From Variovorax paradoxus EPS (lineage in GTDB: Bacteria; Pseudomonadota; Gammaproteobacteria; Burkholderiales; Burkholderiaceae_C), in the NCBI RefSeq assembly GCF_000184745.1, contig NC_014931.1:4464001-4528000 (forward strand): a DNA stretch of 64,000 nucleotides. The letters are read 5' to 3'. Positions 3,750 through 37,563 of this stretch are shown here, in pieces. Positions within the stretch are counted from its first letter, which is position 1. The number at the start of each line of letters is the position of its first letter. The notes below the pieces were generated by a model. The model made no database searches. It was not told where the DNA came from and saw nothing but the letters and a program-made list of their open reading frames with translations. Both the position numbers and the translations under genes were made by a program.

Positions 3750-3847
3750 CCGGAAGAAATTTCGCCAGCACTGTCGGATCGGGCCGCGGCCCGCCGTCCT
3801 TGGTTCGAACGCCCGCATGTCGCTGGGCGCACACCAAGGAGAAGTTC

Positions 3848-4654: not shown

Positions 4655-4883
4655 CGCTCTGGAAGCTCCGGCCGTGCGGGTGGTCCATGAGCACCGCGCC
4701 GATGGCCTCTGCCGCACGCTTTCTGGCTAAACATTCCAAATAGAGCGATAGTTCCTGCCCCCTCGAAGGTTTCCCCCTGTTTTCAATTGGGTGACTACAG
4801 GATACATATGGCAATACTCTGCAACAATCCCATATAAGTAAAAACGTCCTACCCAAGTCAGGCACCGTCAGAATCCCGCCCAC

Positions 4884-5591
4884 ATGTCCAATTCGCACCT
4901 GGAAGACGTCGAAGTCGTTTCCCTGAGCCCCGCGCTGGTGGTCGAAGACGATCCGGCCATGCGCGAGCGGCTCGCCTACGTGCTGTCGACCCTGGGTTGC
5001 GACGAGCCGCAGATCGCCTGGGCCGACAGCGTGACGGCGGCCAAGGAACTGCTCGAGGACCGCGATTTCGGGGTTGCGCTGGTCGACATTGGCCTGCCGG
5101 ACGGCAGCGGCGTCGAGCTGATCGGCTGGATGCAGGCGCATCGCCCGAGGGTGCCCGCGGTGGTGGTCTCGGCCTGGCGGACCGAAGAGGTCATCTTCGC
5201 GGCGCTGCGGGCCGGCGCCATCGGCTACCTGCTGAAGGAACGCGACGACCTGGAACTGAGCATCGCGCTGCGCAGCATCGAGCAGGGCGGCGCGCCCATC
5301 GATCCGTCCATCGCGCGCCGCATCCTCGGCTGGATCGCGGCGCAGCAGACTTCGCTGTCCGCGGTGCTGGCCAGCGATGCGCCGTCCCCGCTGCCCGTGG
5401 CGCTGACGCCGCGCGAGCGAAAGATCCTTGAACTCGTGTCGCAGGGGCTGAGCAACCGCGACATGGCCGAATCGCTGTCGATCTCGCGCCTCACGGTGGA
5501 ATGCCACACCAAGAACATCTACCGCAAGCTCGCCGTCACCTCGCGTACCGAGGCGGTCTTTCAGGGGCGCAGGCACGGCTTGCTGCGCTGA
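4884..5591 (+). CDS. NarL/LuxR-family response regulator
   Basis: A 235-residue two-domain regulator. The receiver domain (about 15-130) has the acidic pair EDD, the phospho-acceptor Asp in VDIGLPDGSG and the Lys in LLKERDD; the C-terminal LuxR-type helix-turn-helix includes LTPRERKILELVSQGLSNRD. The matching histidine kinase of the HisKA_3 class is at 7812-9740, on the far side of the adhesin gene at 5631-7715, so the pair may control that adhesin. The upstream region (4655-4883) is less GC-rich than its surroundings and holds an inverted repeat ATATGG/CCATAT at 4806-4811 and 4830-4835, a possible operator. Confidence 0.9.
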   Translation: MSNSHLEDVEVVSLSPALVVEDDPAMRERLAYVLSTLGCDEPQIAWADSVTAAKELLEDRDFGVALVDIGLPDGSGVELIGWMQAHRPRVPAVVVSAWRTEEVIFAALRAGAIGYLLKERDDLELSIALRSIEQGGAPIDPSIARRILGWIAAQQTSLSAVLASDAPSPLPVALTPRERKILELVSQGLSNRDMAESLSISRLTVECHTKNIYRKLAVTSRTEAVFQGRRHGLLR

Positions 5592-5598
5592 CCGGCCT

Positions 5599-5621
5599 GC
5601 AGACCGGTCTACCCGGTCTGC
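5599..5621. terminator. Stem-loop between convergent genes
   Basis: A perfect 9-base-pair stem, GCAGACCGG paired with CCGGTCTGC around the five-base loop TCTAC. It lies between the 3' ends of the response regulator (+) and the adhesin gene (-). There is no T-run on either side, so if it terminates it would be as a bidirectional block or with Rho. Confidence 0.5.
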
Positions 5622-5630
5622 CTCATCACC

Positions 5631-7715
5631 TCACCAGGCGTAGCCCGCCTGCACGCGCGCCGCAATCCGGTTGCCGCTGCCGCTGCTGGTCGCCGTGGAA
5701 ACGCCCAGCCCCAGGTTCAGGTTGTCGTTGAGCTGGTAGCCGAAAGCGAAGCCGATGGCCGATGCACCGGCGTAGTTGCCCACGGCGGCGCCCATCCATT
5801 TCTTGCCCACCGCCAGCGTCGGCATCGACGGCATGGCCAGCGCAGCGGCGACGCCCCGAGCCGCGAAGGCATTCGCCTGGCTGGTCGCGTTGCCGACCAC
5901 CTGTTGCAGCTGATTGACGTTGACGGCGTCGGTTCCCAGCACGCCGGGTGCGACATTCGCAATGCCGCGCAACTGGTTGGTTGCCGCATTGCCCACCGAC
6001 ACCGTGTTGTCGCGGTCGGCCACCGAGCCCTGGCCCAGCGCCACCGAATTGCTGCCCGTGGCAAGTGTGTTGGCACCCAGCGCGACCGCGTTGTTGCCGG
6101 CCGCCACGGCGTTGTTGCCCACGGCGGTGGTCGGGTCGGCCAGCGCCCGGGCACCCGCGCCGATGGCGACCGAGCCCGCGTGATCGGCCTTCGCGCCGTT
6201 GCCGATCGCGACGGTGTTCTCGCCGTTGGCTTGCGCGTTGGTGCCCATCGAGGTGCTGCCGGCGCCACCCGCACTGGCGCCAGGACCGCAGGCCACGGCA
6301 CCGCCCGCACCCACCGCGCAGACGCCGCTGCTCAAGGCCTGGTTCATCAGGGCCTGCAATGCGGTGACCTGTTGCACGGTGAAGTTGTTCGCCGTGGTGA
6401 CCGCCCCCTGCTGCGCCTGCTGCACCTGTCCGACATTGGCGGCATCGGTAGCCGCCTGCCCCGCGCCGACGTTGCTGATGGTGGTACCGGCGCCGCCGTT
6501 GGCGTTGAGCTGCAGCGAGGTGCCGCCCGCACCGTACTGCGCCGAGTTCTGTGCCGCGCCGAGTGCGGTGTCGGCGGTCTGCTTCACCGTGTTCAGCTGG
6601 CCGACGTTGGCGGCATCCGTGGCGACCTGCCCCGCACCGACGTTGCTGATGACGGTACCGGCGCCGCCGTTGGCATTGAGCTGCAGCGAAGTGCCGCCCG
6701 CGCCGTACTGCGCCGAATTCTGTGCCGCGCCGAGCGCCGCATTGGCTGTGTTCTGTGCCGCGGTGGCGCTCTGCTGCACCGTGTGCAGCTGGCCGCCATT
6801 GACGGCATCGGTGCTCGTGGCGTTCACCGCGCCGGCGCTGACATTGACCAGACCGCGCGTCTGGCCGGCCGAGCCGAACGAAACGGTATTGGCCGCGGTG
6901 GCGACGGCGTTCGCGCCAATGGCCACGCTTCCGTTCGCGCCGCTTGCGACCTGGCTGCCCGACCCGATGGCCACGCTGCCGGTTGCCAGCGCCGCCGCGC
7001 CCGAAGCGCCGTTGCTCGCGCCGCCGATCGCCGTGCTGGCATTGCCGGACGCCACGGCACCCTGGCTGGTGCCCGACGCGCTTCCGATGGCCACTGCGGC
7101 CTCGCCCGTGGCCTGCGCACCGCTGCCGCCGGCCTGGCCGCCAGTGCCACCGCAGCAGACAACTGCCCCGGCTCCGCCCGAACCGAACGCGATCGCGCCG
7201 GAGGCCGAGGCCTGCGCACCACGTCCTCCCGCCGCGCCCGTGCCGCCTGCACGGCCTTGGCCGCCCGTGCCGCCCGCGCCGACCGCAATGGCGCCCGAAG
7301 TCGAGGCCTGAGCGCCGCTCCCTCCCGCCGCGCCGGTGCCGGTTGAAATGCCTGCTCCGCCGGCACCACCACCGCCAATGGCTGTCGAGCTCCCTGCAGC
7401 TGCACTTGCGCCACCGCCACCCACGCCGCCGGTTCCGCCGGCGCTGCCATAGCCGCCGGTGCCACCTCCGCCCAGCGATGTGGCGCCGTCCCCCGAGACG
7501 ACGGCCGCGGCGCCTCCGACGCCTCCCGATCCACCGGTATCCGCCGGGCCGCTTCCGCCGGCCGTGCCTCCGGCGAAGCCCGCCGCATGGGCGCCGGCTG
7601 CCATCAACAACGCCATCGCAGGCAGATGCCGAAGCGCCCGCCTGAACCGCCGTGTTCCTGTCGGCGTCTTGCGAAAGGCCTCGTGGGCGGCGGCGGGGTG
7701 AATCTGGGTGGACAT
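5631..7715 (-). CDS. YadA-like trimeric autotransporter adhesin
   Basis: A 694-residue surface protein. An extended signal region (residues 1-45, with RRFRRALRHLPAMALLMAAG) leads to a Gly/Ser/Thr-rich segment of GGxGG runs, then YadA-type head repeats (SVAIGSGSQVASG, NTVAIGNGAKADH, NSVALGQGSVADRDN), neck/stalk motifs (DAVNGGQLHTVQQ, DAANVGQLNTVKQ), and a C-terminal anchor ending in GYAW that should form the trimeric 12-stranded barrel. Two 57-residue stalk units are tandemly repeated. The start follows from the signal sequence; the frame runs open well upstream. It is divergent from the histidine kinase gene with about 96 bases between. Confidence 0.9.
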   Translation of the reverse strand: MSTQIHPAAAHEAFRKTPTGTRRFRRALRHLPAMALLMAAGAHAAGFAGGTAGGSGPADTGGSGGVGGAAAVVSGDGATSLGGGGTGGYGSAGGTGGVGGGGASAAAGSSTAIGGGGAGGAGISTGTGAAGGSGAQASTSGAIAVGAGGTGGQGRAGGTGAAGGRGAQASASGAIAFGSGGAGAVVCCGGTGGQAGGSGAQATGEAAVAIGSASGTSQGAVASGNASTAIGGASNGASGAAALATGSVAIGSGSQVASGANGSVAIGANAVATAANTVSFGSAGQTRGLVNVSAGAVNATSTDAVNGGQLHTVQQSATAAQNTANAALGAAQNSAQYGAGGTSLQLNANGGAGTVISNVGAGQVATDAANVGQLNTVKQTADTALGAAQNSAQYGAGGTSLQLNANGGAGTTISNVGAGQAATDAANVGQVQQAQQGAVTTANNFTVQQVTALQALMNQALSSGVCAVGAGGAVACGPGASAGGAGSTSMGTNAQANGENTVAIGNGAKADHAGSVAIGAGARALADPTTAVGNNAVAAGNNAVALGANTLATGSNSVALGQGSVADRDNTVSVGNAATNQLRGIANVAPGVLGTDAVNVNQLQQVVGNATSQANAFAARGVAAALAMPSMPTLAVGKKWMGAAVGNYAGASAIGFAFGYQLNDNLNLGLGVSTATSSGSGNRIAARVQAGYAW
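6426..6740 (-). repeat. Tandem 171-base repeat inside the adhesin gene
   Basis: Bases 6426-6569 and 6597-6740 are near-identical and spaced by exactly 171 bases (57 codons). Each encodes ALGAAQNSAQYGAGG followed by LQLNANGGAG and DAANVGQ. In-frame stalk repeats of this kind can expand or contract by recombination, changing stalk length. Confidence 0.85.
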
Positions 7716-7811
7716 GGAATGTGTTCTTTCTCGAAAAACGGACAGACGAAAACGCGACGAAGTGTGTCTTTCTGTTATCAACGGGGCCATCCCCGAGAAC
7801 TGGTAGACGGA

Positions 7812-9740
7812 ATGCCCTCCCCCCAACATCGAGCGCCGCTCGGCCTTCGACCCGCGCTCAGAAGCCGATTGGCAAAGGCATGGGCATGGCTTGCCGTGTC
7901 GCTGGGCATGCTCGTTTTCGTGCTCTTCGCGGCGCCCCTGTCGATGGCGACTGCGCAGGGGCAGCAGCCCCCTGCTCCCGAGCTCCATGCTGAAGCCGTG
8001 CGCGGCACCGGCTGGGACGACACCACGCCGCCCACCGACGGCTGGACGCCCGTCGCGCTGCCCGACAGCTGGCCCGATCGCTGGCCCGGTTTCGATGGCG
8101 TGGTCTGGTACCGGCTCACCTGGACGCAGCCCGCGGAGGCGAACGAAATCGGGCTGCTGCTGAACTACTTCAACATGGCCGGCGCGGTGTTCCTCAACGG
8201 CACGCCGATCCTTCGCGACCCGAACCTCGTCGAGCCGCTCACGCGCTCGTGGAACACGCCGCGCTACTGGCTGCTGGCAGCGCCGCTGCTGCGGCCCGGC
8301 GCCGCCAACACGCTGCTGGTGCGCGTTTCGGGCCTCTCGCCCTACCAGCCGGGGCTGGGGCCGGTGCGACTGGGCGCGCCTGCCGCGATGCAGGCGCTGT
8401 ACGAACGCGAGCGCCTTTTTCGCCACGACCTCCCGATGTTGGGCCTCGCGCTGAGCGCCGTGGTCTCGGCCTTCTTCGCGGCCCTGTGGGTGTTGCGCCG
8501 CAGCGAGACGGCCTACGGCTGGTTCGCGCTGATGTCGGTGCTGTGGCTCGCGTACGGCTACAACCACGTCGCCACGACGCCCTGGCCCTTCACGAACAAC
8601 CACAGCTGGCAGGCGTTCAACACCTCGGCGTTCCTCGCGTTCAGCGTGGCCTTTCTGGTCTTCACGCTGCGCTTTTGCGAGCGGCGCATGCCGCGCCTGG
8701 AAATCGCGGCGCTGCTGCTGGTGAGCGTGGGCTGGCTCGATCTCTGGACCGCGGGCATGCCGTCGCTGCCCCTGCACCGGGCTGTGTGGGGGCTGGTGGG
8801 CGGGCTGATGACGATTGCCGTGTGCTGCTCGGCGCTGGTCCACGCCCTGCGCTTGCGCCAGGGCCCCGTACTCGCGCTCGCGCCGTTCATGGCGATGTCC
8901 GCCGTGACCGGCACGCACGATCTGCTGGTGTTCACGCAGGTGATCGACAGCAACATCTACTACACGACGATGTCGTCCTATGCGCTGCTGCTGGGCATGG
9001 CGCTGATCCAGGCCGGCCGCTTCGTCAAGAGCCTCGAGCGCATCGAGAACTTCAACACCGAGCTGATCGAGGAAGTGAACGCCGCCAAGGCCGAACTCGC
9101 CGCCACGCTCGCGCAGCAGCATGCGCTGGAGCTCGCGCATGCGCGCATCGGCGAGCGCGTCAACCTCGCGAGCGACCTGCACGATGGCCTCGGCGGCATG
9201 CTGGTGGGCAGCATCGCGACGCTGGAGCGCACGCCAGAGAACCTGTCGGCGCCCGAACTGCTCGCGATGCTCAAGAGCCTGCGCGACGACCTGCGGCTGA
9301 TCATCGAAGCCACCGGCCGCCACGACAGTGCGCGCGCGTTCGGCGAACTGCTCGCGCCGCTGCGGCACCGCACCTCGCAGCTGCTCGATGCGAACGGCAT
9401 CGACTGCCGCTGGCAGGTGTCGAATCTCGAAACGCTCGAACTGCCGCCCTCGCAGAGCCTGGACCTGCTGCGCTTTCTGCAGGAGGCGCTGACCAACGTG
9501 CTCAAGCACAGCGCGAGCCGTCGCGTGGACGTGGCGGTGATGCGCGACGGCGCCGAACTGCAGCTCAGCGTGCGCGACAACGGACGTGGCTTCGTGGTCG
9601 ATGGGGCCGACAAGGCGGCCGGTTCCGGCTTGCGCAGCCTGCGCACCCGGGCGCGCCGCCTCGGGGCCGAGCTTCAGTTGCAGTCGCGGCCCGGCGAAAC
9701 GCAACTGGCACTGCGGATGCCCCTGGCGCCCGCAGCCTGA
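7812..9740 (+). CDS. Membrane sensor histidine kinase (HisKA_3 class)
   Basis: About 642 residues. An N-terminal hydrophobic segment (residues 25-50) leads into an extracytoplasmic beta-rich domain with WPDRWPGFDGVVWYRLTW, as in the 7TMR-DISM class. Several membrane helices follow (about 210-395), then a coiled linker, the phospho-acceptor motif LASDLHDGLGGMLVG and a HATPase domain with VRDNGRGF and GSGLRSLRTRARRLGA. It is the natural partner of the NarL-type regulator at 4884-5591. The Met at 7812 was chosen because a signal-like segment follows; upstream in-frame Mets exist and no strong ribosome binding site decides. Confidence 0.88.
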   Translation: MPSPQHRAPLGLRPALRSRLAKAWAWLAVSLGMLVFVLFAAPLSMATAQGQQPPAPELHAEAVRGTGWDDTTPPTDGWTPVALPDSWPDRWPGFDGVVWYRLTWTQPAEANEIGLLLNYFNMAGAVFLNGTPILRDPNLVEPLTRSWNTPRYWLLAAPLLRPGAANTLLVRVSGLSPYQPGLGPVRLGAPAAMQALYERERLFRHDLPMLGLALSAVVSAFFAALWVLRRSETAYGWFALMSVLWLAYGYNHVATTPWPFTNNHSWQAFNTSAFLAFSVAFLVFTLRFCERRMPRLEIAALLLVSVGWLDLWTAGMPSLPLHRAVWGLVGGLMTIAVCCSALVHALRLRQGPVLALAPFMAMSAVTGTHDLLVFTQVIDSNIYYTTMSSYALLLGMALIQAGRFVKSLERIENFNTELIEEVNAAKAELAATLAQQHALELAHARIGERVNLASDLHDGLGGMLVGSIATLERTPENLSAPELLAMLKSLRDDLRLIIEATGRHDSARAFGELLAPLRHRTSQLLDANGIDCRWQVSNLETLELPPSQSLDLLRFLQEALTNVLKHSASRRVDVAVMRDGAELQLSVRDNGRGFVVDGADKAAGSGLRSLRTRARRLGAELQLQSRPGETQLALRMPLAPAA

Positions 9741-9752
9741 GCGACTTGCGGA

Positions 9753-10580
9753 TTACTCCGCCCAGACTACCGTGCCGGTCCACGCCGTCACCAGCACCAC
9801 GATGCCGAAGGCGATGCGATACCAGGCGAACGGAATGAAGTTGTGGGTGCTGATGAACTTCAGCAGCCAGCGCACGCACAGCCACGCGCTGATGAACGAG
9901 AACACGAGGCCCACCGCGAAGAGCGGCACGTCGGCCATCGACAGCAGCGCGCGCTCCTTGTAGACGCTGTACACGCCGGCGCCGATCAACGTCGGGATCG
10001 CGAGGAAGAAAGAGAAGTCCGTCGCCGCCTGGCGCGAGAGGCCCAGCAGCATGCCGCCGATGATGGTCGAGCCGCTGCGGCTCGTGCCCGGGATCATCGC
10101 GAAGCACTGCACGAGGCCGACCTTGAGCGCATCCCACGCCGTGAGGTCGTCGACATGTTCGACGCGCACCGAACCGGGCGGCCGCTTCTCGGCCCACAGG
10201 ATGATGAAGCCGCCGATGATGAAGGTGCTGGCCACCACGGTCGGGATGAACAGGTTGGCCTTGATCACCTTGCCGAACAGGAGGCCCAGCACCACCGCGG
10301 GCAGGAAGCCGATGAAGATGTTGAGCGCGAGGCGCCGCGCCTTGGGTTGCCGCGGCAATGCCACGACGGTCGACTTGATCTTCTGCCAGTAGACCAGGAT
10401 CACCGCGAAGATCGCGCCGGTCTGGATGGCGATCTCGAACACCTTGCCCCGGTTGTCGCCGAAGCCGCCGAGCAACGAGCCCGCAAGAATCAGATGGCCT
10501 GTCGACGAGATCGGCAGGAACTCGGTCAGCCCTTCGACGATGCCCATGGTGGCGGCCTTGACCAGCAAAACAATATCCAC
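9753..10580 (-). CDS. uppP: Undecaprenyl-diphosphatase UppP (BacA)
   Basis: A 275-residue integral membrane enzyme that dephosphorylates undecaprenyl diphosphate to recycle the lipid carrier for peptidoglycan and other envelope polymers. Both signature regions are present: [15 protein letters not shown] (about 15-29) and [10 protein letters not shown] (about 165), with the catalytic Glu, Ser and Arg. The start is set at GTG 10580: the family begins (M)DIVLLIKAA and AGGAG sits seven bases upstream on the minus strand. The ATG at 10607 would add nine unconserved residues. It is convergent with the kinase gene. Confidence 0.95.
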
Positions 10581-10749
10581 GCGTACTCCTTCAACAAAGA
10601 GCGTCAATTATGGCGAGGGCATCGGTCAGCTCCGGTTCAGGTGAGAGGCGCGCGGGAGTACCGAATACCTAATTTCGGGGATGTTCACCCTGTGGGAGCC
10701 GATACATATTGCAACCTGAACATTCATGTGCCCCCGAAGGAGTCTTGCC

Positions 10750-11622
10750 ATGCGAACGTCGACTGCCGCGGACGAGCGCGAATCAACTGCCGAAGACCAC
10801 GGCCGGGACCGGCTGAAGAACCCCCTCGCGATCGAGCGGGAGCAGTGCGAATCGATGCGCCGCGTGGCCGGCGCGACCGGCGCCTCGGCCCATGAATTGA
10901 AGCTCTTGATGCAGCGGCTGGTCGACATCGACCGCTCGGGCAAGAGCGCGGGCATCGTCGCGCAGGGCAACATCGCCGCCGACCGGATGGAAGCCGAGGT
11001 CCAGATGCTCGACCTGGGCGACGGCTGCATCGCCGGGCAGCAGGCCGAGGCCTGCCAGCGCATCGACTTCGGCCTGCTCGAACCGCTGAACCCCGCGCAC
11101 GACAAGAAGTGGTACGCGCGCTGGAAGTTCTGGAGCTTCATCCTCGGCGCGGCCGGCCCGGTGGCCTCGCTCACGCTGCAGGGCCTGGCGCTGCGCCCGA
11201 GCGAGCCCGAAGACGCGCACGCCGATCTCGTGGCCAAGGCGCGCAAGGTGCTGGAGAGCTGGCGCCGCACCTCCGACCCGCTCTTCTGGTCGGCCGTCGA
11301 AGACTACGTGCGGCAGCAGGCCTTCTCGCTCGAAACGCAGGCCTACCTCATGCACTGCATCGCGGCCGTGTTCAGCGGCGACACGATGAAGCTCTCGAAC
11401 GAACAGAGCGAAGCACTCACCGGCCTGCTCACCGACACGTACTGCGATGCGCTCGGCACCGCGGCCACGATGCCTTCGTCGGACATCTACCGGCGCCTGG
11501 CCGAAGGCCTGGAAGCGACCGACCGCGAGACCGGCGTGCACCGCATGCTGGGACGTAGCGACGCGGCGCAGATCGCGATGACCACGCTGGTCACCGCCAT
11601 CGGCCACGGCGGCTCACACTGA
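10750..11622 (+). CDS. Protein of unknown function
   Basis: A 290-residue protein not recognised. The N-terminal half is hydrophilic and helical (IEREQCESMRRVAGAT, HELKLLMQRLVDIDRSGKS). Around residue 120 there is KKWYARWKFWSFILGAAGPVASLTLQGLAL, one likely membrane or amphipathic helix, and the rest is mostly alpha-helical. No signal peptide is seen. The start is well supported by GAAGGAG eight bases before the ATG at 10750. It is divergent from uppP with about 170 bases between, enough for promoters in both directions. Confidence 0.7.
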   Translation: MRTSTAADERESTAEDHGRDRLKNPLAIEREQCESMRRVAGATGASAHELKLLMQRLVDIDRSGKSAGIVAQGNIAADRMEAEVQMLDLGDGCIAGQQAEACQRIDFGLLEPLNPAHDKKWYARWKFWSFILGAAGPVASLTLQGLALRPSEPEDAHADLVAKARKVLESWRRTSDPLFWSAVEDYVRQQAFSLETQAYLMHCIAAVFSGDTMKLSNEQSEALTGLLTDTYCDALGTAATMPSSDIYRRLAEGLEATDRETGVHRMLGRSDAAQIAMTTLVTAIGHGGSH

Positions 11623-11704
11623 CACTGAGCGCGGCTGCCCGGTTCTCTGGCGAAGGGCGCGCACGGCGCTGTCGATCGCCGTGTGCCACCTGTCGCGCGT
11701 GAAG

Positions 11705-12166
11705 TCAGGCCGGTTTGCCGCCCGCCGCCATGTGGATCGCGGCGCGAATGCGCGGGTAGGTGCCGCATCGGCAGATGTTGCCGCTCATCGCATTCGTCAC
11801 CTCGTCGTCGCTGGGCTGCGGCACCTTCTTGAGCAGCGCGCAGGCCGACATCAACTGGCCGCTCTGGCAGTAGCCGCACTGCACGACATCGACCTCGGTC
11901 CAGGCACTGCGCAGCGCATCGGCCTCCTTGCCCTGCAGGCCCTCGATGGTGGTGACCTCGCGTGCACCCACCGATTCGAGCGGCGTGACGCAGGAGCGCA
12001 CCGCCTCGCCGTCCAGGTGCACGGTGCAGGCGCCGCACAACGCCTTGCCGCAGCCGAACTTGGTGCCGACGAGCTGCATCTCGCCGCGCAGCACCCACAG
12101 CAAGGGCGTGTCGGGCTCGGCGTTGACGGTGGAGGTCTTGCCGTTGATCCTGATCGTGGTGGTCAT
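11705..12166 (-). CDS. iorA: (2Fe-2S) subunit of a xanthine-oxidase-family molybdoenzyme
   Basis: A 153-residue small subunit with two [2Fe-2S] clusters. The plant-type ferredoxin cluster ligands are in [18 protein letters not shown], and the C-terminal helical domain carries CGYCQSGQ and CRCGTYP. It passes electrons from the molybdopterin subunit encoded just upstream. Length and motifs match isoquinoline 1-oxidoreductase alpha subunit-like (IorA) proteins; the actual substrate is unknown. It lies 21 bases after the large subunit, so the gene order is large then small subunit. No cytochrome or XdhC maturation gene is adjacent. Confidence 0.85.
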
Positions 12167-12187
12167 GGGGCGTTCCTTTTTATTCGT

Positions 12188-14455
12188 TCAGGCGAGCTTC
12201 AGCGGCAGGCTGCGCAATCGCTGGCCGGTCAGCGCGAACAGCGCGTTCGCCACCGCCGGCGCGATGGGCGGCGTGCCCGGTTCGCCGACGCCGCCGGGGC
12301 GGTCGCTGCCCGCGACGATCTCGGTCTCGATGACCGGGCACTCGTTCATGCGCAGCGGCATGTAGTCGTGGAAATTGCTCTGCTGCACCTGGCCCTTTTC
12401 GATGGTGATCTCGCCGTGCAGCGCAGCCGAGAGGCCGTAGACGATGCCGCCCTCCATCTGCTGGCGAATGAGGTTGGGATTGACCGGCACGCCGCAGTCG
12501 ATGACGCAGACCACGCGGTGCACGCGGATCTGCTTGTCCGCCGAGACCGACACTTCGGCCACCTGCGCGACGATGCTGCCGAACGCGCGATGGATGGCAA
12601 CGCCGCGCGCACGCTTCGCGCCGTCGGGCGCATCGGCCAGCGGCTTCCCCCAGCCCGACAACTCGGCCGCGCGTTGCAGCACGTGCAGATGGCGCGGGTC
12701 TTTCGCGAGCAACGTGGCGCGGAAGGCGACCGGGTCCTTGCCGGCAGCGGCTGCGCACTCGTCGATGAAGCTCTCGACGAAGAAGCCGTTCTGCGAATGC
12801 GCCACCGAGCGCCACACGCCGGTGGTCACCGCAGACTCCACCGGTTCGTGGGCCACGCGGGCGTTGGGGAAGTCGTAGGCCGTGTTCCAGGCGCCGTCGG
12901 TCGAGGTGTCCATGAACGACGGCGCACCCAGGCTGGAGCCGGCCGTGGTGGTCTGCCACGCGACCAGCGCACCGTTCGCATCGAGGCCCGCCTTGCAGCG
13001 CGCCACATAGGCGGGCCGGTAGTAGTCGTGCGCCATGTCTTCCTCGCGCGACCAGATCAGCTGCACCGGCGCACCGTCGGTCTCGCGCGCCAGCATCGCG
13101 GCCTGCGTGACGAAATCGGTGGAATAGCGGCGGCCGAACCCGCCGCCCAAGAAGGTCACATGCAGATCGACCTTCTTCGCGTCGATGCCCAGCGCCGAAG
13201 CCACCGCGCCGCGCGCGAAGCCCGGCGCCTGCGTGGGCGCCCAGACGGTTGCCACGCCGTCCTTGAACTGCGCCGTGCAGTTCATCGGCTCCATGGTGGC
13301 GTGCGCGAGGAAGGGCACGCGGTATTCGACGTCGAGCGTCTTCGCTGCCGACTTCAGCGCAGCGGCCGCATCGCCTTCGTCGAGCCGCGCATTGCCTTCG
13401 CTCGTGCGCAAGGTCTGCGAGAGGCGCTCGATCATCTCGCGGCTCGACAGACTGGCCGCGGGGCCGTGGTCCCACTCGATCTCGACCGCCTTCAGCGCGC
13501 GCATCGCGTGATACGGCGTGTCGGCGATCACCGCCACGCCGCCCGAGGTGCTGCCGGTGCCGATGAGCGTCACGCCCACCGGCGCCAGCGCCACCACCTT
13601 GCGCACGCCGGGCAGCTTCTGCGCGGCAGCGGCATCGAAGCGAGCGACCCTGCCGCCGATGGTCGGGCACATGGCGATGCTCGCGTACAGCAGGCCGGGC
13701 GGCAGCGTGTCCATGCCGAACTTCGCTGTGCCATCGAGCTTGGCCTTGTTCTCGATGCGGCGCGAGGGCTGGCCGATCAGCTTGAAGTCGGCCGGTTTCT
13801 TCAGCGCGACGTTCCTGGCCAGCGGCTGCTGCGAAGCGCCCTGCGCCAGTTCACCGAAGCTCGCGCTCTTGCCATTCGGATGCAGCACGCGGCCGCCTTC
13901 GGTGCGGCATTCGCCGGCCGGCACGCTCCACGCGGCAGCAGCGGCGCCGATCAGCATCGCGCGTGCGGAGGCGCCCGCTTCGCGCACGGGCAGCCACTGG
14001 TCGGTGATGCTCGACGAGCCGCCCGTGCCCGAGAGCCCCGGGATCGAACGCAGCAGCTTGCCGACCACGTGCTCGGTCGCACGCTTGACCCTGCCTTCGT
14101 CGCCGGGCTTGAAAGGCAGCGCATCGAGGATCACGGCCTGGTTGTTGTAGATGGCGTCGGCGCCCGCGCTTTCGATGCGGACCTGGCCGAGCGAGGCGTC
14201 CATCTCCTCGGCCAGCAGCATCGCAAGGCCGGTGTGCGTGCCCTGCCCCATCTCCGACTGCGACATCATCAGCGTGACGGTGTTGTCGCCGCCCACCTTG
14301 ACCCAACCATTGAGCGCGACTTGGCCCGGCCCCGCGGGCAGCGGCTCGGAGCCCACAAGACGAGAAGCGGCCGGCGTGGCGGACCAGCCGACCACGAGGG
14401 CGCCGACGGCCCCGAAGGTGCCGAGGACGAAATGACGGCGCTTGAGTTGGGGCAT
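12188..14455 (-). CDS. iorB: Molybdopterin-binding subunit of an aldehyde/isoquinoline oxidoreductase
   Basis: A 755-residue large subunit of the xanthine-oxidase family, IorB type. The twin-arginine signal RRHFVLGTFGAVGALVVGW at the N-terminus indicates folded export. Cofactor-binding stretches are visible (SEMGQGTHTGLAMLLAEEMD, FLGGGFGRR, GEPGTPPIAPAVANALF). It should hydroxylate a heteroaromatic or oxidise an aldehyde, with electrons going to the [2Fe-2S] subunit downstream. The start at 14455 places the Tat motif immediately after the N-terminus; the frame is open further upstream but that part is not conserved. Confidence 0.88.
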   Translation of the reverse strand: MPQLKRRHFVLGTFGAVGALVVGWSATPAASRLVGSEPLPAGPGQVALNGWVKVGGDNTVTLMMSQSEMGQGTHTGLAMLLAEEMDASLGQVRIESAGADAIYNNQAVILDALPFKPGDEGRVKRATEHVVGKLLRSIPGLSGTGGSSSITDQWLPVREAGASARAMLIGAAAAAWSVPAGECRTEGGRVLHPNGKSASFGELAQGASQQPLARNVALKKPADFKLIGQPSRRIENKAKLDGTAKFGMDTLPPGLLYASIAMCPTIGGRVARFDAAAAQKLPGVRKVVALAPVGVTLIGTGSTSGGVAVIADTPYHAMRALKAVEIEWDHGPAASLSSREMIERLSQTLRTSEGNARLDEGDAAAALKSAAKTLDVEYRVPFLAHATMEPMNCTAQFKDGVATVWAPTQAPGFARGAVASALGIDAKKVDLHVTFLGGGFGRRYSTDFVTQAAMLARETDGAPVQLIWSREEDMAHDYYRPAYVARCKAGLDANGALVAWQTTTAGSSLGAPSFMDTSTDGAWNTAYDFPNARVAHEPVESAVTTGVWRSVAHSQNGFFVESFIDECAAAAGKDPVAFRATLLAKDPRHLHVLQRAAELSGWGKPLADAPDGAKRARGVAIHRAFGSIVAQVAEVSVSADKQIRVHRVVCVIDCGVPVNPNLIRQQMEGGIVYGLSAALHGEITIEKGQVQQSNFHDYMPLRMNECPVIETEIVAGSDRPGGVGEPGTPPIAPAVANALFALTGQRLRSLPLKLA

Positions 14456-29805: not shown

Positions 29806-30153
29806 TTAGCGCCAGTGGCCGTGACGGTGACCACGGTGGTACCCACCGCCGTAATAGCGGGGACCGTAGTAAGCCGGCGGCGCGTAATACACCGGCGCCG
29901 GACGGTAATACACCGGCGGCGGCGGACGGTAGTAGACCGGAGGCGGTGCGTAGTAAACCGGGGCCGGCGGCGCATAGACCGGAGCCGGGTAGTAGGCGGG
30001 ACCGCCCACGCCGACCGCCACGCCGGGGACGCCGACACCGATCGACCAGCTCACATCGCTGCGAGCGCTGGCCGAGGTGGCTGCGAACAATGCACCGGCT
30101 GCCACGACGCCCGCGGCAGCCCATTTGAAGAAGGTGGAACGTGTGAGGCTCAT
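29806..30153 (-). CDS. Small secreted Tyr/Pro-rich protein
   Basis: 115 residues with a clear signal peptide (FFKWAAAGVVAAGALFAATSASA). A short region SWSIGVGVPGVAVGVGGP follows, then repeats of the type PAPVYYAPPPVYYRPPPPVY, and a Gly/His/Arg-rich end (HRGHRHGHWR). Similar proteins are widespread in Comamonadaceae without a known function. AAGGAG eight bases before the ATG supports the start. It is divergent from glnS. Confidence 0.8.
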   Translation of the reverse strand: MSLTRSTFFKWAAAGVVAAGALFAATSASARSDVSWSIGVGVPGVAVGVGGPAYYPAPVYAPPAPVYYAPPPVYYRPPPPVYYRPAPVYYAPPAYYGPRYYGGGYHRGHRHGHWR

Positions 30154-30300
30154 GATGTTGACTCCTTGTTTCGGGGGCACTGTCCGGGTCTGGACCGCCC
30201 ATGTGTGTATTGAACGCGGCAATTGCAAACGGGGTGCACCGGCCATTGTGAAGAACGTTGCCAAAGGTAACCCACAGAGGGCGCCCTCTAGAATGAAGCA

Positions 30301-32121
<1,821 letters not shown>

Positions 32122-32193
32122 TAGCCTCTTTTTAAAGATATTGAACCATATGCCAAATCCATCATTGGCAATGAATGAGCATTCAAAAAATAA

Positions 32194-33003
32194 ATGAGAC
32201 CCCTACTTAGATGGGCTGGCAGTAAAAAGCAATTAATTGGCCACCTTCGGCCCTATTGGGAGGCGTCTTTGGCTCAGCGCTATGTCGAACCATTTGCGGG
32301 TTCTGCTGCTTTATTTTTCGATATTGAGCCAAAAGCAGCCCTATTGGGGGATGTTAATTCTTTGCTGGTCGAGTTCTACACTGCGCTCCGCGATACACCA
32401 GATCGAATCTTTCAACTTACTTCATCCTGGGCGATCAACAAAGAAAAATATTATGAAATCCGCGCCTCCCTAATAGTAGAAAAAGACCCGATTTTGCGAA
32501 GCGCAATGTTTTTTTATTTGAACAGGAATTGCTTTAACGGCATATTTCGAACAAACATGCGTGGCGAATTTAATGTGCCTTTTGCCGCAACAAAAACCGG
32601 CGCCATGCCGGATATCAGCGAAATAAAACAGGCCGCCTTACTTTTAAAAAACACGAAGATTGAAAAAAAAGATTTTCGAGAAATACTAAAAAAAGTCAAG
32701 GCAGATGATTTTGTTTTTCTTGACCCCCCTTATGCAGTCGAAAATAGACGAATATTTGTTCAGTACAACGCCCAGACATTTGGGCTAGCTGACCTAGAGG
32801 AGCTATCCGATACATTGCATTGCATTGATGCCCTGGGAGCAAAATTTGTAATGTCATACGCAATTTCGGCTGAAGCACTTCACTATTTTGATTACTGGAA
32901 CGTCCGACGCGTTACATGCCAACGTAATGTCGCCGGCTTTTCAAGTCATCGGAGAAAAGCGGTGGAATTGATAGTTTCGAATATGGAAAAGGCATCACCA
33001 TGA
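32194..33003 (+). CDS. D12-class (Dam-like) adenine-N6 DNA methyltransferase
   Basis: 269 residues with the alpha-class order of motifs: RWAGSKKQL at 6-14, the AdoMet-binding PFAGSAA at 33-39, and the catalytic DPPY at 177-180 in FVFLDPPYAVENR. The C-terminal FSSHRRKAVELIVSN is also typical of Dam/T4 Dam enzymes. It should methylate adenine in a short target; GATC is a guess from family. No restriction enzyme gene is beside it within the cassette. It is AT-rich with codon use unlike glnS. Its stop overlaps the next start in ATGA (33000-33003). Confidence 0.9.
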   Translation: MRPLLRWAGSKKQLIGHLRPYWEASLAQRYVEPFAGSAALFFDIEPKAALLGDVNSLLVEFYTALRDTPDRIFQLTSSWAINKEKYYEIRASLIVEKDPILRSAMFFYLNRNCFNGIFRTNMRGEFNVPFAATKTGAMPDISEIKQAALLLKNTKIEKKDFREILKKVKADDFVFLDPPYAVENRRIFVQYNAQTFGLADLEELSDTLHCIDALGAKFVMSYAISAEALHYFDYWNVRRVTCQRNVAGFSSHRRKAVELIVSNMEKASP

Positions 33004-34043
33004 ATATTCAAGAATCTCTACCTCTTGATTCCAAGGTACAGTCGGCTGCAGAGTTGCTCACTTTGCCAGCTCAACAACTTGTTCCTAACCCGCAAAATCC
33101 ACGCGTTCTTTTTGATCCTGAGCCGTTACGCGATTTAAAACAAAATATCGCACTTCACGGAGTTTTAGTTCCTTTGACCGTTTTCCGACTTCCCGACGGA
33201 AAACGCTTCGGTATTCTGGATGGAGCACGGCGGCATCGTTGCTGCAGCGAATTACTAGAAGAAGGAATAGCAATAGAAATTCCCTGCAATATTGTAGTCC
33301 CTCCAAATAAATTGGCAGGACTGCTATATATGTTCAATATTCACAACTTCAGAGAGGCTTGGGAGCTAATGCCAACAGCTCTTAGTCTGAGCATTGTGAT
33401 AGAAGAACTCGGTGAAACAGATACAAAAAAGCTCTCTAACCTAACCGGGTTAAGCGAACCGCAGGTTGAACGATGCAAACTCCTCTTAAACGTTGACGAT
33501 GATCTTCGCCAACTATCGCTGGACCCTAATCCCAAAACAAGAATCCCATCGAATTTCTGGATTGAGGCGATTCCAATCGTTGAACTAACAAGGATCGAAC
33601 TACCCGATCTCTATGAGTCTATGGGTGAAAGAGGAATCCTTGAGCGATTTGTTGAAAAATATCGCAGGAAAAAAATAAAAAGCGTCATCCATTTTCGACG
33701 AATTGCAGAGGCCTTTACTAACGTTGAGGATGATCCTGTTGGGAAAGATCAAGCCGCCACGTTATTACGTCGCTATATAAATGAAATCGACCTCGAAACA
33801 CGCGCTGCATTTGATGCTTTTGTTCAAGATGCAAGAAAAGTTAAGGGTGCCCTTGAAGCGTGTAGCACGTTCGTAAATGCGCTCGGCCGCATTAATGTCG
33901 AGCACGTAACCGATCAACGCCCAGAGTTGGTCGAGGCTTTGAAATCTGCAAAGACATACATCGACGGCCTTCTTAATAAATTATCAGGCGAAGATGACCC
34001 AACGCTCTTCGACGATAGTGACGAAGATGGCGATGAAGAATGA
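33000..34043 (+). CDS. ParB/Srx-fold protein with HTH (ParB-like)
   Basis: 347 residues. The N-terminal ParB-like domain (about 20-105) contains LVPNPQNPR and LDGARRHRCC, the position where chromosomal ParB has its GERR nucleotide-binding motif; here Glu is Ala. A helix-turn-helix region follows (KKLSNLTGLSEPQVERCKLL, about 140-160), then a helical part and a very acidic C-terminus (DDPTLFDDSDEDGDEE). No ParA partner is present, so plasmid or chromosome partition is unlikely; ParB-fold proteins also act as nucleases, CTP switches or adaptors in conflict systems. It overlaps both neighbours by four bases. Confidence 0.82.
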   Translation: MNIQESLPLDSKVQSAAELLTLPAQQLVPNPQNPRVLFDPEPLRDLKQNIALHGVLVPLTVFRLPDGKRFGILDGARRHRCCSELLEEGIAIEIPCNIVVPPNKLAGLLYMFNIHNFREAWELMPTALSLSIVIEELGETDTKKLSNLTGLSEPQVERCKLLLNVDDDLRQLSLDPNPKTRIPSNFWIEAIPIVELTRIELPDLYESMGERGILERFVEKYRRKKIKSVIHFRRIAEAFTNVEDDPVGKDQAATLLRRYINEIDLETRAAFDAFVQDARKVKGALEACSTFVNALGRINVEHVTDQRPELVEALKSAKTYIDGLLNKLSGEDDPTLFDDSDEDGDEE

Positions 34044-34879
34044 ATCTCGCTGATTTCATCTTTGCGGCTCGAATCGCCTACCGATTCCGAAGATACCGCC
34101 CCCAGCGAGTTTCAATAAAATCGGTCCTTGCGTGGTTATCCCAGTATCCACTTGAGGAAAGGCAAATAATAAAACAAACAGCACTTCATCTAAAATGCGT
34201 TACCGATAGCGTGATGCTTCGCGATCTTCTGGATCGCAATTCACAGCTCCTAAGAACTCTCAGCGAAGCAAAAATCCCCAATAAGAACATTATTTATGTC
34301 AGCATTAGCGAAGCTGGAAGTAGCAGTCATGTTGTTTTAAATATGCTACGGGATCAAGCTCGCTTAGAAGTAATGGGCTGCAAACTTTTAGATGCAGGAA
34401 ATGCAGGCAAACTTCATGAAACCACAGCCAAACTTGAAAGCGGCGCGATCATTTATGTAGATGATTTTTCGGGAAGTGGAACCCAATTTTGTAGTCAACG
34501 CGAAATGATTGGAGGCTATATTGTGGGGAATTTCTCGGAATATTTTTTACTCCATACTATCTGCGAAGAAGCCATTCCGCATATTGCCAAAACAGGCGTG
34601 GTTGTATGGCAATCCCAGATACACGAAAAGCATGTTCGCCCTCTTAATGAAGCAAGTTCGCTTCTTAAGCCAACAGATCGTGCAACATTGGTTGCGCGTG
34701 CAACAGCCATAGCAAAAAAAGGTGGGCTTGGCTATCGAAGCCTTGCGTCGATGATTGTTTTCGAAAGAAACACTCCCAATACGGTTCCACTAGTTTTTCG
34801 TGGAGATAAAGGCCAACGATCCTTTAAGGGTTTTATTCCTCGAACGACGGATTTACCGCCTCATTCTTTACTCCTTTAA
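34040..34879 (+). CDS. Phosphoribosyltransferase-fold protein (PRTase-like)
   Basis: 279 residues. The PRPP-loop-like motif VDDFSGSGT (140-148) preceded by hydrophobic AIIY fits type I phosphoribosyltransferases. Upstream, IIYVSISEAGSSSHVVLNML resembles the first strand and loop of the fold, and the C-terminus is Lys/Arg-rich. It is not a known purine or pyrimidine salvage enzyme. Comparable PRTase-fold proteins occur as effectors in type III retrons and in predicted conflict operons (PRTase-CE). It is last in the cassette and its start overlaps the ParB-like stop in ATGA. Confidence 0.72.
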   Translation: MNLADFIFAARIAYRFRRYRPQRVSIKSVLAWLSQYPLEERQIIKQTALHLKCVTDSVMLRDLLDRNSQLLRTLSEAKIPNKNIIYVSISEAGSSSHVVLNMLRDQARLEVMGCKLLDAGNAGKLHETTAKLESGAIIYVDDFSGSGTQFCSQREMIGGYIVGNFSEYFLLHTICEEAIPHIAKTGVVVWQSQIHEKHVRPLNEASSLLKPTDRATLVARATAIAKKGGLGYRSLASMIVFERNTPNTVPLVFRGDKGQRSFKGFIPRTTDLPPHSLLL

Positions 34880-34999
34880 ATTTAATTTTTGACGCCGAAT
34901 TATTCGCCTGAAACGCGTCCCTTTATAGCTTCGCGGCGTTAATCGACGTCAGTAGTGCTCGATGCAGCGAAGGATGTCGGCCAGCTATCCTGCGGCGTC

Positions 35000-35548
35000 A
35001 TGACTTTCCCAAATACTTCCCGCCTCATCCGCTTCAACAAGCCCTACGGCGTCCTCAGCCAGTTCACCCCCGAGGGCCGATGGCGTGGGCTGAAAGATTT
35101 CATCGACATCCCCGACGTCTACGTCGCCGGCCGCCTCGATGCCGACAGCGAAGGCCTGCTGCTCCTTACCAACGACGGCCAGCTCCAGGCGCGCATCGCC
35201 GATCCGCGCTTCAAGATGGAGAAGACCTATTGGGTGCAGGTGGAGGGTGTGCCGACCGAAGAGGCGCTCGCCGCGCTGCGCCAGGGCGTGCAACTCAACG
35301 ACGGCCTCACGCGCCCTGCCCGCGCCAGCCTGCTCGATCCGCCGCCCGATGTGTGGCCGCGGCAACCGCCGATTCGCGAGCGCAAGAGTATTCCGACCGC
35401 ATGGCTGGAGCTGGCGATCAGCGAAGGCCGCAACCGGCAGGTGCGGCGCATGACCGCCGCTGTCGGGCTGCCCACGCTTCGCCTGATCCGGGCCGCCATC
35501 GGGCCGCACACGCTTGATGGATTGGCGCCCGGCACCTGGCGCGAGTAA
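35000..35548 (+). CDS. rluE: 23S rRNA pseudouridine synthase, RluE-type
   Basis: 182 residues of the RsuA/RluB/RluE group. The catalytic Asp47 is in [18 protein letters not shown], followed by KTYWVQVEG and the signature [16 protein letters not shown]. There is no S4 domain, which together with length fits RluE (U2457 of 23S rRNA in E. coli). The Met at 35000 directly precedes the conserved [14 protein letters not shown]; an upstream in-frame Met at 34955 reaches into the cassette's right border and is not conserved. Composition is back to GC-rich here. Confidence 0.92.
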
Positions 35549-35606
35549 CAACGAACGCGGCCGCGCGACGTCACAGACAAAACCTCTTTCATTCAATCCT
35601 CCCTTC

Positions 35607-36533
35607 ATGCACGACAACATCCGAACCACCTCGCCCGACCTCCTCACGCCCGCACTGATGAATCGCCGCAGCGCATTGCTCGGCACGCTGGGCTTGCTCG
35701 CGCTGCCCGCAACGCAGGCCGTCGCGGCTGCGCCCGCGAAGTCGAAGCAGACACAAACGCAGAAGCACCCCGACGTCTGGCCGCACGCGTCACAGGTGCC
35801 GGGCGGCGTGGCGCGCCTGTCGCTCGGCCCGAGCGCCAAACGCCCGGCCGCCTTTGCAGGCGACGTGCCCTTGCTCGTTGTGGGTGACGCCATCGAATGG
35901 ACAGCGCTGGTCGGCATCCCGCTCGCAGCCACGCCCGGCGAGGCGAGCATCACGGTGCGCACCGAGAGCGGGAGCGAAAGACAGGTCGCCTACACGGTCA
36001 CCGACAAGCAGTACCGCGAACAGCGCCTGACAGTGGCGCCGCGCACGGTCGACCTCTCGCCCGAAGACGAAGCGCGCTACGTGCGCGAACGCGACCACCT
36101 GACCGGCGTGATGGCCACGCTCACTGACCTGCGGCCCGATGCTGTGCTGCAGATGCGCGTGCCCGTGCCGGGTCGCCGCTCCAGTTCGTTCGGCCTGCGC
36201 CGCGTGTTCAACGGGCAGTCGCGCAATCCGCACAGCGGGATGGACATCGCGGCCCGCACGGGCACGCCGGTGCTGGCGCCGCTGCCGGGGCGGGTGATCG
36301 ATACGGGGGACTATTTCTTCAACGGCGGCACGGTGTGGCTCGACCATGGCGGCGGGCTGCTGACGATGTATTGCCATCTGAGCCGGGTGGATGTGAAGGT
36401 GGGGGATGTGATGAAGACGGGGGAACAGTTGGCTGCGGTGGGCGCGACCGGGCGGGTGACGGGGCCGCATCTGCATTGGTCTGTGATGTTGAATCGGGCG
36501 ATGGTGGACCCGGCGTTGTTCATTGCGGCTTGA
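35607..36533 (+). CDS. M23-family peptidoglycan endopeptidase
   Basis: About 308 residues. A signal region (MNRRSALLGTLGLLALPATQ, with paired Arg as in Tat signals) leads to an N-terminal beta domain. The LytM/M23 domain has zinc ligands in RNPHSGMDIAA and PHLHW, with GGGLLTMYCHLS between. It should cleave peptide cross-links in the periplasm. Two starts are possible: 35607 (used) and 35658, the latter giving a more typical signal peptide. It overlaps no neighbour and lies 58 bases after rluE. Confidence 0.9.
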   Translation: MHDNIRTTSPDLLTPALMNRRSALLGTLGLLALPATQAVAAAPAKSKQTQTQKHPDVWPHASQVPGGVARLSLGPSAKRPAAFAGDVPLLVVGDAIEWTALVGIPLAATPGEASITVRTESGSERQVAYTVTDKQYREQRLTVAPRTVDLSPEDEARYVRERDHLTGVMATLTDLRPDAVLQMRVPVPGRRSSSFGLRRVFNGQSRNPHSGMDIAARTGTPVLAPLPGRVIDTGDYFFNGGTVWLDHGGGLLTMYCHLSRVDVKVGDVMKTGEQLAAVGATGRVTGPHLHWSVMLNRAMVDPALFIAA

Positions 36534-36606
36534 GTAATCACCCTGAGTTCCGGATTCCGCTCGCCTCATAAACTCGCGCCATTCCAACGAGGGGCGGGTT
36601 GAGGCG

Positions 36607-37563
36607 ATGACCAAACAGACAAGAGCCGAGCGGCGCCGTGAACGCGCACGCAGCAAACTGGCGGGCAACGGATGGACGGCGATCATCGTCGGCGTCTTGC
36701 TCCTGGTGGTACTTCCGGCGTTCATGCACGGCCCGATCATCGGCACGCTCGGCCCGGCGCTTCGTCCTGCGGGATGGACAGCATTGGCGATTGGCGCGGC
36801 CTTGCTGGGGCTGCACTACCTCGTCGCTCGCAAGAAGGTCGTGCCTCAGGCCATCGAACGTACAGAGCCATCGGCTGCTGCGGTCAAGGTCGCTCGTCCG
36901 ATGGCAACGCCTCCCGCTGCCGCACGACGCGAACCGGTATTGGATTCCGAGCTCTCCCAGCCAACGCCCTCGCCTTCAGTACCCGCACCTGCACAGCAGC
37001 AGCAATGGAGCCCCGCCGTACTCGCCGCCATCGAATGGCGACGCTTCGAGGCCTTGTGCGAAGCGCTCTACGCGCAAGCGGGTTTCACCACGCGCAGCCA
37101 GTCGCACGGCGCGGACGGCGGCATCGACATCTGGCTTCACTCCAAGCACAGCGACGTGCCGCGCATCGTTCAATGCAAGCACTGGCGAAGCAAGCCCGTG
37201 GGCGTGAAGGAGATGCGGGAGTTCCTTGGCGTGATGGCTTCGCATCAGTTGAAGACCGGCACCTACGTGACGAGCTCGACCTTCTCCGCCGATGCCACTG
37301 CCTTCGCCAAGGCCAACGGCATCCACGCGCAGGACGGCGCCGCCTTGCTCAAGCTGATCGGCCAGCGCACGCCCGAGCAGCAGGCCGCATTGCTCGCCGT
37401 GGCTTACGAAGGCGAGTACTGGCGGCCCACCTGCGCAAGCTGTGGCACGAAGATGGTCGAAAGAAACTCGTCAAAGAATGAAGGCAGCTTCTGGGGCTGC
37501 GCCAACTATCCGAAGTGCCGGGGCAGGACGATTCCGAAGTCGAAGGCATCTGCAACGGTCTGA
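36607..37563 (+). CDS. Membrane-anchored Mrr-like nuclease with zinc ribbon
   Basis: 318 residues. Two N-terminal membrane helices (about 22-40 and 55-77), a low-complexity linker, then an Mrr_cat restriction-endonuclease fold with GADGGIDIW (about 168-176) and the core QCKHW (189-193, in place of ExK). A C-terminal topoisomerase-type zinc ribbon (CASCGTKM ... GCANYPKC) follows. It probably cuts DNA, perhaps modified or foreign, at the inner membrane. Such three-part proteins are common in Betaproteobacteria and are not tied to a methylase gene. GC content matches the genome. Confidence 0.85.
   Translation: MTKQTRAERRRERARSKLAGNGWTAIIVGVLLLVVLPAFMHGPIIGTLGPALRPAGWTALAIGAALLGLHYLVARKKVVPQAIERTEPSAAAVKVARPMATPPAAARREPVLDSELSQPTPSPSVPAPAQQQQWSPAVLAAIEWRRFEALCEALYAQAGFTTRSQSHGADGGIDIWLHSKHSDVPRIVQCKHWRSKPVGVKEMREFLGVMASHQLKTGTYVTSSTFSADATAFAKANGIHAQDGAALLKLIGQRTPEQQAALLAVAYEGEYWRPTCASCGTKMVERNSSKNEGSFWGCANYPKCRGRTIPKSKASATV

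Follow-up and report, generated by a model that had tools for sequence, protein, structure and literature searches.

A dam-parB-phosphoribosyltransferase trio between glnS and rluE of Variovorax paradoxus EPS: a candidate conflict system found across phyla

What are three AT-rich genes doing between two core genes of Variovorax paradoxus EPS, and do they belong together? The genes lie in a stretch of 64,000 nucleotides (contig NC_014931.1, positions 4,464,001 to 4,528,000; hereafter the window, from whose first base all coordinates are counted) and form a cassette on the + strand, from 32194 to 34879, which encodes a Dam-like adenine methyltransferase, a ParB-like protein and a protein with a phosphoribosyltransferase (PRTase) fold, being flanked by glnS and rluE. 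A previous sequence-only reading had proposed a compact acquired conflict unit in which the methylase marks self DNA, the ParB-like protein recognises or loads on DNA and the PRTase-fold protein is the effector. The trio is real, acquired and conserved across phyla, it is undescribed so far as the literature searched shows, and in kind it would be a self-marking function combined with an effector. That it works as a horizontally acquired three-gene conflict system, probably anti-phage, with Dam marking self, the ParB-type protein sensing unmarked DNA and the PRTase as effector, appears to us about as probable as its contrary.

The foreign character of the cassette is evident from its composition, with a GC content of 0.435 over 32122-34940 versus 0.675 in the remaining window, and a GC at third codon positions of 0.35-0.40 in the dam, parB and PRTase genes versus 0.885 in glnS. 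The 12 lowest-GC stretches of 2.8 kb in the window all overlap the cassette (starts 31001-33201), and the drop noted from the letters alone is confirmed, down to the 60-base line beginning at 32641 in which only 14 bases are G or C. Reading of the sequence equally bears out the three co-directional genes joined by ATGA overlaps at 33000 and 34040, the parB ATG being placed within the ATGA that overlaps the dam stop, and matches to PDB structures identify the core genes on both sides, namely glutaminyl-tRNA synthetases for glnS (best E 4e-178) and pseudouridine synthase E for rluE (E 5e-70). The place given for the cassette (32122-34940) was also right, its extent being slightly wider, ~32112-34983, when the foreign stretch is delimited by comparison with relatives from the genus.

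The distribution of the cassette is patchy. Within the host genus one genome out of 101 has the PRTase. The full-type ParB was met once among 369 genomes of the class and once among 398 of the phylum, to which one distant match (G472) is added. Comparison of the glnS-rluE gap in relatives, with lengths derived from match coordinates, revealed a spacing of 7 bases in G084 and G038, 12 bases in G032 and ~16.4 kb in G059; G071, which of the relatives found there is the closest (97% at rluE), carries ~1.5 kb of other sequence. Of ten alignments to empty sites, four (L016, L020, L021, L025) were used, the six in reversed orientation being set aside. Together with the differing composition, the occurrence in a single genome out of 101 indicates that the cassette is not vertically inherited at this site.

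Across the genus (L068-L075) the gap is between 7 bases and about 16 kb long and its cargo is mixed. Ten proteins chosen from inserts of seven relatives were compared with PADLOC at E 1e-5, and three of them matched: PDC-S14 (357 bits, G042) and HEC-01A (638 bits, G033), both in the gap itself, and an Mrr-like protein which is not counted as an insert because a protein of similar appearance by eye is encoded at 36607-37563 of the window, downstream of rluE. The latter, Mrr-like by eye, has no PDB match at E 0.01. The remaining seven, without PADLOC match, include a short-chain dehydrogenase, an AraC-type regulator, an M23 peptidase and a transposase, and since the inserts comprise such ordinary genes the gap is a general variable site rather than one reserved for defence. 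A patchy distribution and exchange at a variable site in which other defence genes also occur are traits of anti-phage systems, and both are found here.

The strongest evidence that the three genes form a unit comes from distant genomes. A scan with a ParB profile yielded 10 loci from genome contigs and 4 from viral contigs which, considering that L043 equals L002, that L046 equals L045 at 99% and that L009 and L010 come from a single assembly as separate contigs, amount to 12 distinct ParB-anchored loci, window included. In all ten single-contig loci that extend past parB the succession dam-parB-PRTase is kept in order and strand (in L003 the PRTase is truncated by the contig end), and in eight loci the genes follow each other closely, the joints measuring -13 to +28 bases. 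The other loci are incomplete: L004 has a dam split in two by the open reading frame call and a parB, its contig ending 217 bases on, and in L010 dam is followed by the first half of parB, whose second half precedes the PRTase in L009. In this Ignavibacteria assembly the parB homology ends ~80-120 bases before both contig ends, for which reason an inserted element in parB is possible. The record titles name Acidobacteria, Nitrospirota, Chloroflexi, Cloacimonadota, Gemmatimonadetes and Ignavibacteria, two more loci being viral contigs without host name, and the full-type ParB is rare in other phyla too (2/297, 1/200 and 1/198 genomes). The triple is thus met beside different genes in distant phyla, and neither of the two outcomes named beforehand as refuting the earlier reading was found, the other being vertical inheritance at this locus with matching composition.

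As these loci had been collected with ParB as bait, the reverse test was made with a PRTase profile. Among the 297 genomes of the Paracidobacterium phylum the strong PRTase matches are G846 and G849, the same two that carry the full-type ParB, a coincidence with a chance of 2.3e-5 when relatedness is ignored. In the same set a third ParB match, G1024, has no PRTase match, and a third PRTase match, G1030 (E 5e-6), adjoins a reverse transcriptase. In a broader comparison over the protein database, 31 of 119 ParB matches, among the 120 listed of 1135, equal a PRTase match in the size of the longest contig, against a mean of 1.6 and a maximum of 8 in a control with jittered sizes; here 119 of 120 listed ParB rows and 117 of 118 PRTase rows were used, one row of each without value being left out. 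Altogether, the dam-parB-PRTase trio is a real unit, co-inherited across several phyla, and these distant co-occurrences together with the non-vertical inheritance in the host genus provide good support for the compact acquired conflict-type unit that had been proposed.

The three proteins have also diverged in concert, as Mantel tests on protein distances from nine loci gave r 0.94 for ParB-PRTase (p 0.0002), 0.82 for Dam-PRTase (p 0.0028) and 0.78 for Dam-ParB (p 0.0044). The tighter correlation between ParB and PRTase speaks for the main rival explanation, a toxin-antitoxin unit with an epigenetic switch, in which the PRTase would be a toxin kept in check by the ParB-like protein as DNA-binding antitoxin, in the way of DprA with its PRTase or of the winged-helix protein of type III retrons, and Dam would set the expression of the operon or make the unit addictive. 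As far as the available parts of two reports go, known PRTase effectors do have DNA-binding proteins as partners (PMC9122126, PMC12548924), and parB and the third gene are adjacent in the three variant loci described below as well. However, Dam remains beside ParB in those variants despite the change of third gene, a constancy that a dispensable regulator would not require, and a palindrome suited to autoregulation was not seen upstream in 8 of the 9 leaders scanned. A leader palindrome had also been considered as a ParB site and was dropped, being present in 1/9 leaders. We consider the toxin-antitoxin explanation unlikely, but it deserves more weight than the other rivals.

The variants show that the partner of the Dam-ParB pair is exchanged. 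Three distant ParB relatives adjoin a Dam and have, in place of the PRTase, another protein of 273-282 residues. L086 (G1454, 5414-8022) has dam, parB and a 273-residue protein of a family designated A3; L066 (G472, 3779-8310) has dam, a DpnII endonuclease, parB, a 281-residue protein and an N6/N4 methylase; and in L076 (G1024, 4911-7663) dam faces a pair formed by parB and the gene of a 282-residue protein without Pfam match. None of the three third proteins is a diverged PRTase (hhalign probability <1% for all three). In family A3, R238 and H243 are invariant in 15/15 sequences, forming an R-x4-H motif with a spacing as in HEPN RNases, and the family shows homology to the L066 partner at a probability of 92%. 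Membership of the L076 partner, P0240, is not supported at a probability of only 8%, and its IHDRYI stretch, which by eye recalls phospholipase D-like proteins, was backed by no search. A PDB search with A3 gave one match at chance level, and a scan of viral contigs with A3 gave nothing. Because the partners differ, two of them are homologous and one family has the invariant R-x4-H, the third slot looks like that of an exchangeable effector. The ParB proteins of PRTase-type and variant loci share an identity of 0.37 in the N-terminal domain and of 0.14 in the C-terminal tail, a drop that would follow from contact of the C-terminus with the partner but also from simple divergence.

From the fact that distant relatives exchange the third gene, Dam and ParB may be taken as the constant part, recognising self and non-self, and the third gene as the one that does the damage. 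In the mechanism that we favour, Dam would methylate adenine, probably in GATC, and so mark the resident DNA; the ParB-like protein, with its nucleotide-binding ParB domain, helix-turn-helix (HTH) and a helical C-terminus specific for the partner, would load on unmarked DNA and, once loaded, recruit or release, and in this way activate, the third protein; and the PRTase effector, using phosphoribosyl pyrophosphate (PRPP), would attack a nucleotide, a nucleic acid or the PRPP pool itself, so that the infected cell stops. The role proposed for the PRTase relies on the fact that such proteins act so, or are proposed to, elsewhere: in the parts available of the respective papers, a PRTase is the effector or toxin partner in retron III-A defence (PMC12548924) and in DprA-PRTase defence (PMC9122126). 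A more detailed version, possible but on the whole somewhat doubtful, would be a new class of modular immunity in which a nucleotide-dependent clamp of ParB type, not a nuclease, detects that Dam methylation is missing and activates an exchangeable effector, be it PRTase, HEPN-like or other. If this were true, the altered motif IHNFR..W of the ParB-like protein (see below) would be that of a dedicated clamp, the signal would be its loading on unmarked DNA, and a self marking of restriction type would be joined to a killing of abortive-infection type via the fold of a partition protein.

The DpnII endonuclease (PF04556 E 9.8e-90) that stands beside the variant ParB in L066, within a DpnII-type operon, brings in a second rival, namely that the PRTase or the ParB-like protein directly modifies or cuts unmethylated DNA, the phage genome and not the cell being attacked. 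Nuclease activity has indeed been reported for other ParB-fold domains, as stated in the available part of PMC5512222. The typical loci are, on the other side, devoid of a recognisable nuclease. The structure model of the third protein is a clear PRTase, and PRTase enzymes act on small molecules, so that a restriction-like action is improbable.

A third rival is the maintenance of a mobile element, in which ParB would serve partition, Dam the control of replication and the PRTase the supply of nucleotides. A serine recombinase adjoins L006, where the cassette of Paracidobacterium acidisoli lies at 7156-9868, a tyrosine integrase adjoins L044 and several loci are on viral contigs, all of which would be in line with it. 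Nevertheless, no ParA was found in the window and 16 related loci with two plasmid ParAs as phmmer queries, a weak test given that these match each other at only E 2.4e-4 and 1.5e-3, and the trio of the window has no further gene beside it between the two core genes. Searched by tblastn against plasmid and phage records, ParB gave 8 plasmid and 16 phage matches, none reaching 80% query coverage, the two plasmid matches inspected being ordinary ParA-ParB pairs, and the PRTase gave no match at all, for which reasons a plain phage or plasmid gene block was discarded; neither did a scan of viral contigs with the single window PRTase as query give any match. Maintenance of a mobile element is hence the least probable of the explanations, and a very improbable one.

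Analysis of the individual proteins is in agreement with the assignments on which the conflict system reading is built. The methyltransferase (269 residues, 32194..33003, + strand) matches PF02086 (E 3.8e-41) and, above cut-off, TIGR00571 (E 1.1e-59), its closest PDB chain being DpnM (2dpm, E 7.8e-39). The stretch NGIFRTNMRGEFNVP (32536..32580, +) aligns with NGLCRYNLRGEFNVP of E. coli Dam (2g1p), is kept in the 12 aligned Dams and is, we presume, part of GATC recognition; the catalytic motif DPPY (32722..32733, +) is DPPY or DPPF in all 12. The gene is the sole PF02086 match in its own genome, and as Dam exceeds the cut-off in 4/71 genomes of the genus, own included, it is not a core gene there.

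The ParB-like protein (347 residues, 33000..34043, +) consists of a ParB N-terminal domain (PF02195 E 3.9e-10), an HTH region and an all-helical C-terminal region. Profile matches to Noc, ParB and Spo0J structures are in agreement with its model (predicted local distance difference test score, pLDDT, 84.8), for which Foldseek returns Noc, ParB and KorB, and it is below the TIGR00180 cut-off (44.9 vs 58.45 bits). The ParB motif GARR (G75-R78; 33222..33233, +) is GERR in most relatives, with G75, R77 and R78 invariant in 35/35 aligned sequences, and the HTH region covers about residues 142-163 (33423..33488, +), with model helices 142-149 and 153-163 aligned with the HTH of Noc and ParB. At the position of the ENxxR nucleotide motif of partition ParBs, which is absent, stands the signature MFNIHNFREAW (M111-W121; 33330..33362, +), in which I-H-N-F-R replaces the canonical residues. 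It aligns to the ENVQR stretch of Caulobacter ParB; M111, F112, I114, H115, R118 and W121 are invariant in 35/35, and the H, R and W are retained in the three distant variants.

The third protein (279 residues, 34040..34879, +) belongs to PRTase-CE (PF24390, 88.7 bits for a cut-off of 27) and has a PRPP-loop-like motif, YVDDFSGSGTQF (Y139-F150; 34454..34489, +), in which D141, D142, F143 and Q149 are invariant in 39/39 aligned sequences. An identity with the anti-phage PRTase DS-32 (DS32_1, NCBIfam NF053875) was rejected, the score being far under the cut-off (19.7 vs 250 bits).

A number of observations weigh against the conflict system as we have described it. With 15 GATC sites for 13.6 expected, the cassette shows no depletion, and a conserved DNA site upstream of dam was not found. 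The glutamate of ENxxR, which in ParB is needed for cytidine triphosphate (CTP) turnover, is a histidine in this family, and a standard CTP switch is therefore not assured. The HEPN-like character of the exchanged partner is suggested by its motif, and with Pfam HEPN_Apea the exchanged protein P0239 reached 14.6 bits for a cut-off of 24.4, P0241 and P0240 giving nothing. The co-divergence of the three proteins can equally reflect plain shared inheritance. Finally, none of ten chosen neighbour proteins at related loci matches PADLOC at E 1e-5, and the loci tested are therefore outside known defence islands. As to the roles proposed from the sequence alone, then, self-marking methylase, ParB recogniser and PRTase effector agree with the finding that three relatives have another third gene and are not helped by the neighbours.

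The borders of the cassette were placed from the relatives. On the left, the segment 32112..32193 comprises the glnS 3' end and a 72-bp leader ahead of dam, the glnS matches of most relatives ending at query base 412, which is 32111 of the window; on the right, an AT-rich tail (34880..34983) extends until homology with the region upstream of the relatives' rluE returns, several matches beginning at 34984. An imperfect inverted repeat of 25 nt and 76% identity is observed at the borders (32094-32118 and 34969-34993, common core GGATAGCTGG / CCAGCTATCC), and its origin may lie in the host sequence or in the insertion event. Scans for promoters and terminators did no better than chance (5 vs 4.7 and 5 vs 3.5, respectively), and Rfam gave no match in 30000-37000.

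A description of Dam, ParB and PRTase as one system was not met in the full-text literature searched, which is thin on subscription papers and preprints, nor is the trio described in the available parts of PMC13092281, PMC12839542, PMC10853773, PMC12548924, PMC5512222, PMC9122126 and PMC9519451; the first of these, the DefensePredictor paper, names a PRTase only in a figure legend in the text that could be consulted. Within these limits of the sources, the earlier statement that no named system has exactly this set stands. Being found outside annotated defence islands, the trio could be missed by island-based searches. It is compact, easily cloned and present across phyla, and offers a direct way to test whether a ParB-fold protein can serve in immunity as a sensor under the control of DNA methylation, as well as what PRTase effectors do, the function of retron PRTases being called unknown in the consulted part of Rousset et al. 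2022 (PMC9122126).

Each component of the trio has relatives in known systems, from which the trio as a whole differs. With DpnII-type restriction-modification, directed at GATC, it shares a methylase which by sequence appears closest to DpnM among PDB chains and exceeds the TIGR00571 cut-off, and a distant relative of its ParB lies inside a DpnII operon (L066); the cassette has, however, no DpnII nuclease or second methylase, the Pfam matches of genes 2 and 3 being ParB_N and PRTase-CE only. The methylase also matches PD-Lambda-5_B of PADLOC (E 8.8e-15), a component of PD-lambda-5 (Vassallo et al. 2022), which the available part of PMC9519451 presents as a compact system of restriction-modification plus abortive infection, whereas the window ParB has no PADLOC match at E 0.1 and a variant ParB matches PD-Lambda-5_A only at E 8e-4. 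In respect to the CTPases ParB, Noc and KorB, the ParB N-terminal domain and the HTH are common in sequence and model, the differences being IHNFR..W for ENxxR, a distinct helical C-terminus and a ParA that was not found in the weak phmmer test mentioned above. The Pfam PRTase family is likewise common to the arrangement of PRTase-CE with an ORC-CDC6-like ATPase (PF24390 with PF24389), in which the sensor gene is an ATPase and, at L053 and L065, Dam and ParB are absent. At these loci (5536-8333 and 8450-13382, respectively) distant PRTase-CE genes adjoin PF24389 ATPases, the gene in L065 adjoining also a protein with a haloacid-dehalogenase-like match, and this is another PRTase conflict arrangement.

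Type III-A retrons, as covered by the accessible text of PMC12548924, have the PRTase superfamily in common with the cassette, the window PRTase matching five PRTase_III-A models of a PADLOC library without curated cut-off (best E 1.8e-16). The partners are, however, ParB and Dam, and with neither a reverse transcriptase nor an Rfam match nearby, none of the only three genes between glnS and rluE encoding the former, a retron identity was rejected. A retron-like arrangement is seen at L087 (G1030, 4603-7134), where a distant PRTase adjoins a reverse transcriptase (PF00078). The pairing of a PRTase with a DNA-binding protein is found in the DprA-PRTase anti-phage system (Rousset et al. 2022, PMC9122126), in which the partner is DprA where the cassette has ParB, and a methylase is not named in the portion of that paper available to us; in that work the DNA-binding partner is proposed to detect phage DNA and to switch on the PRTase.

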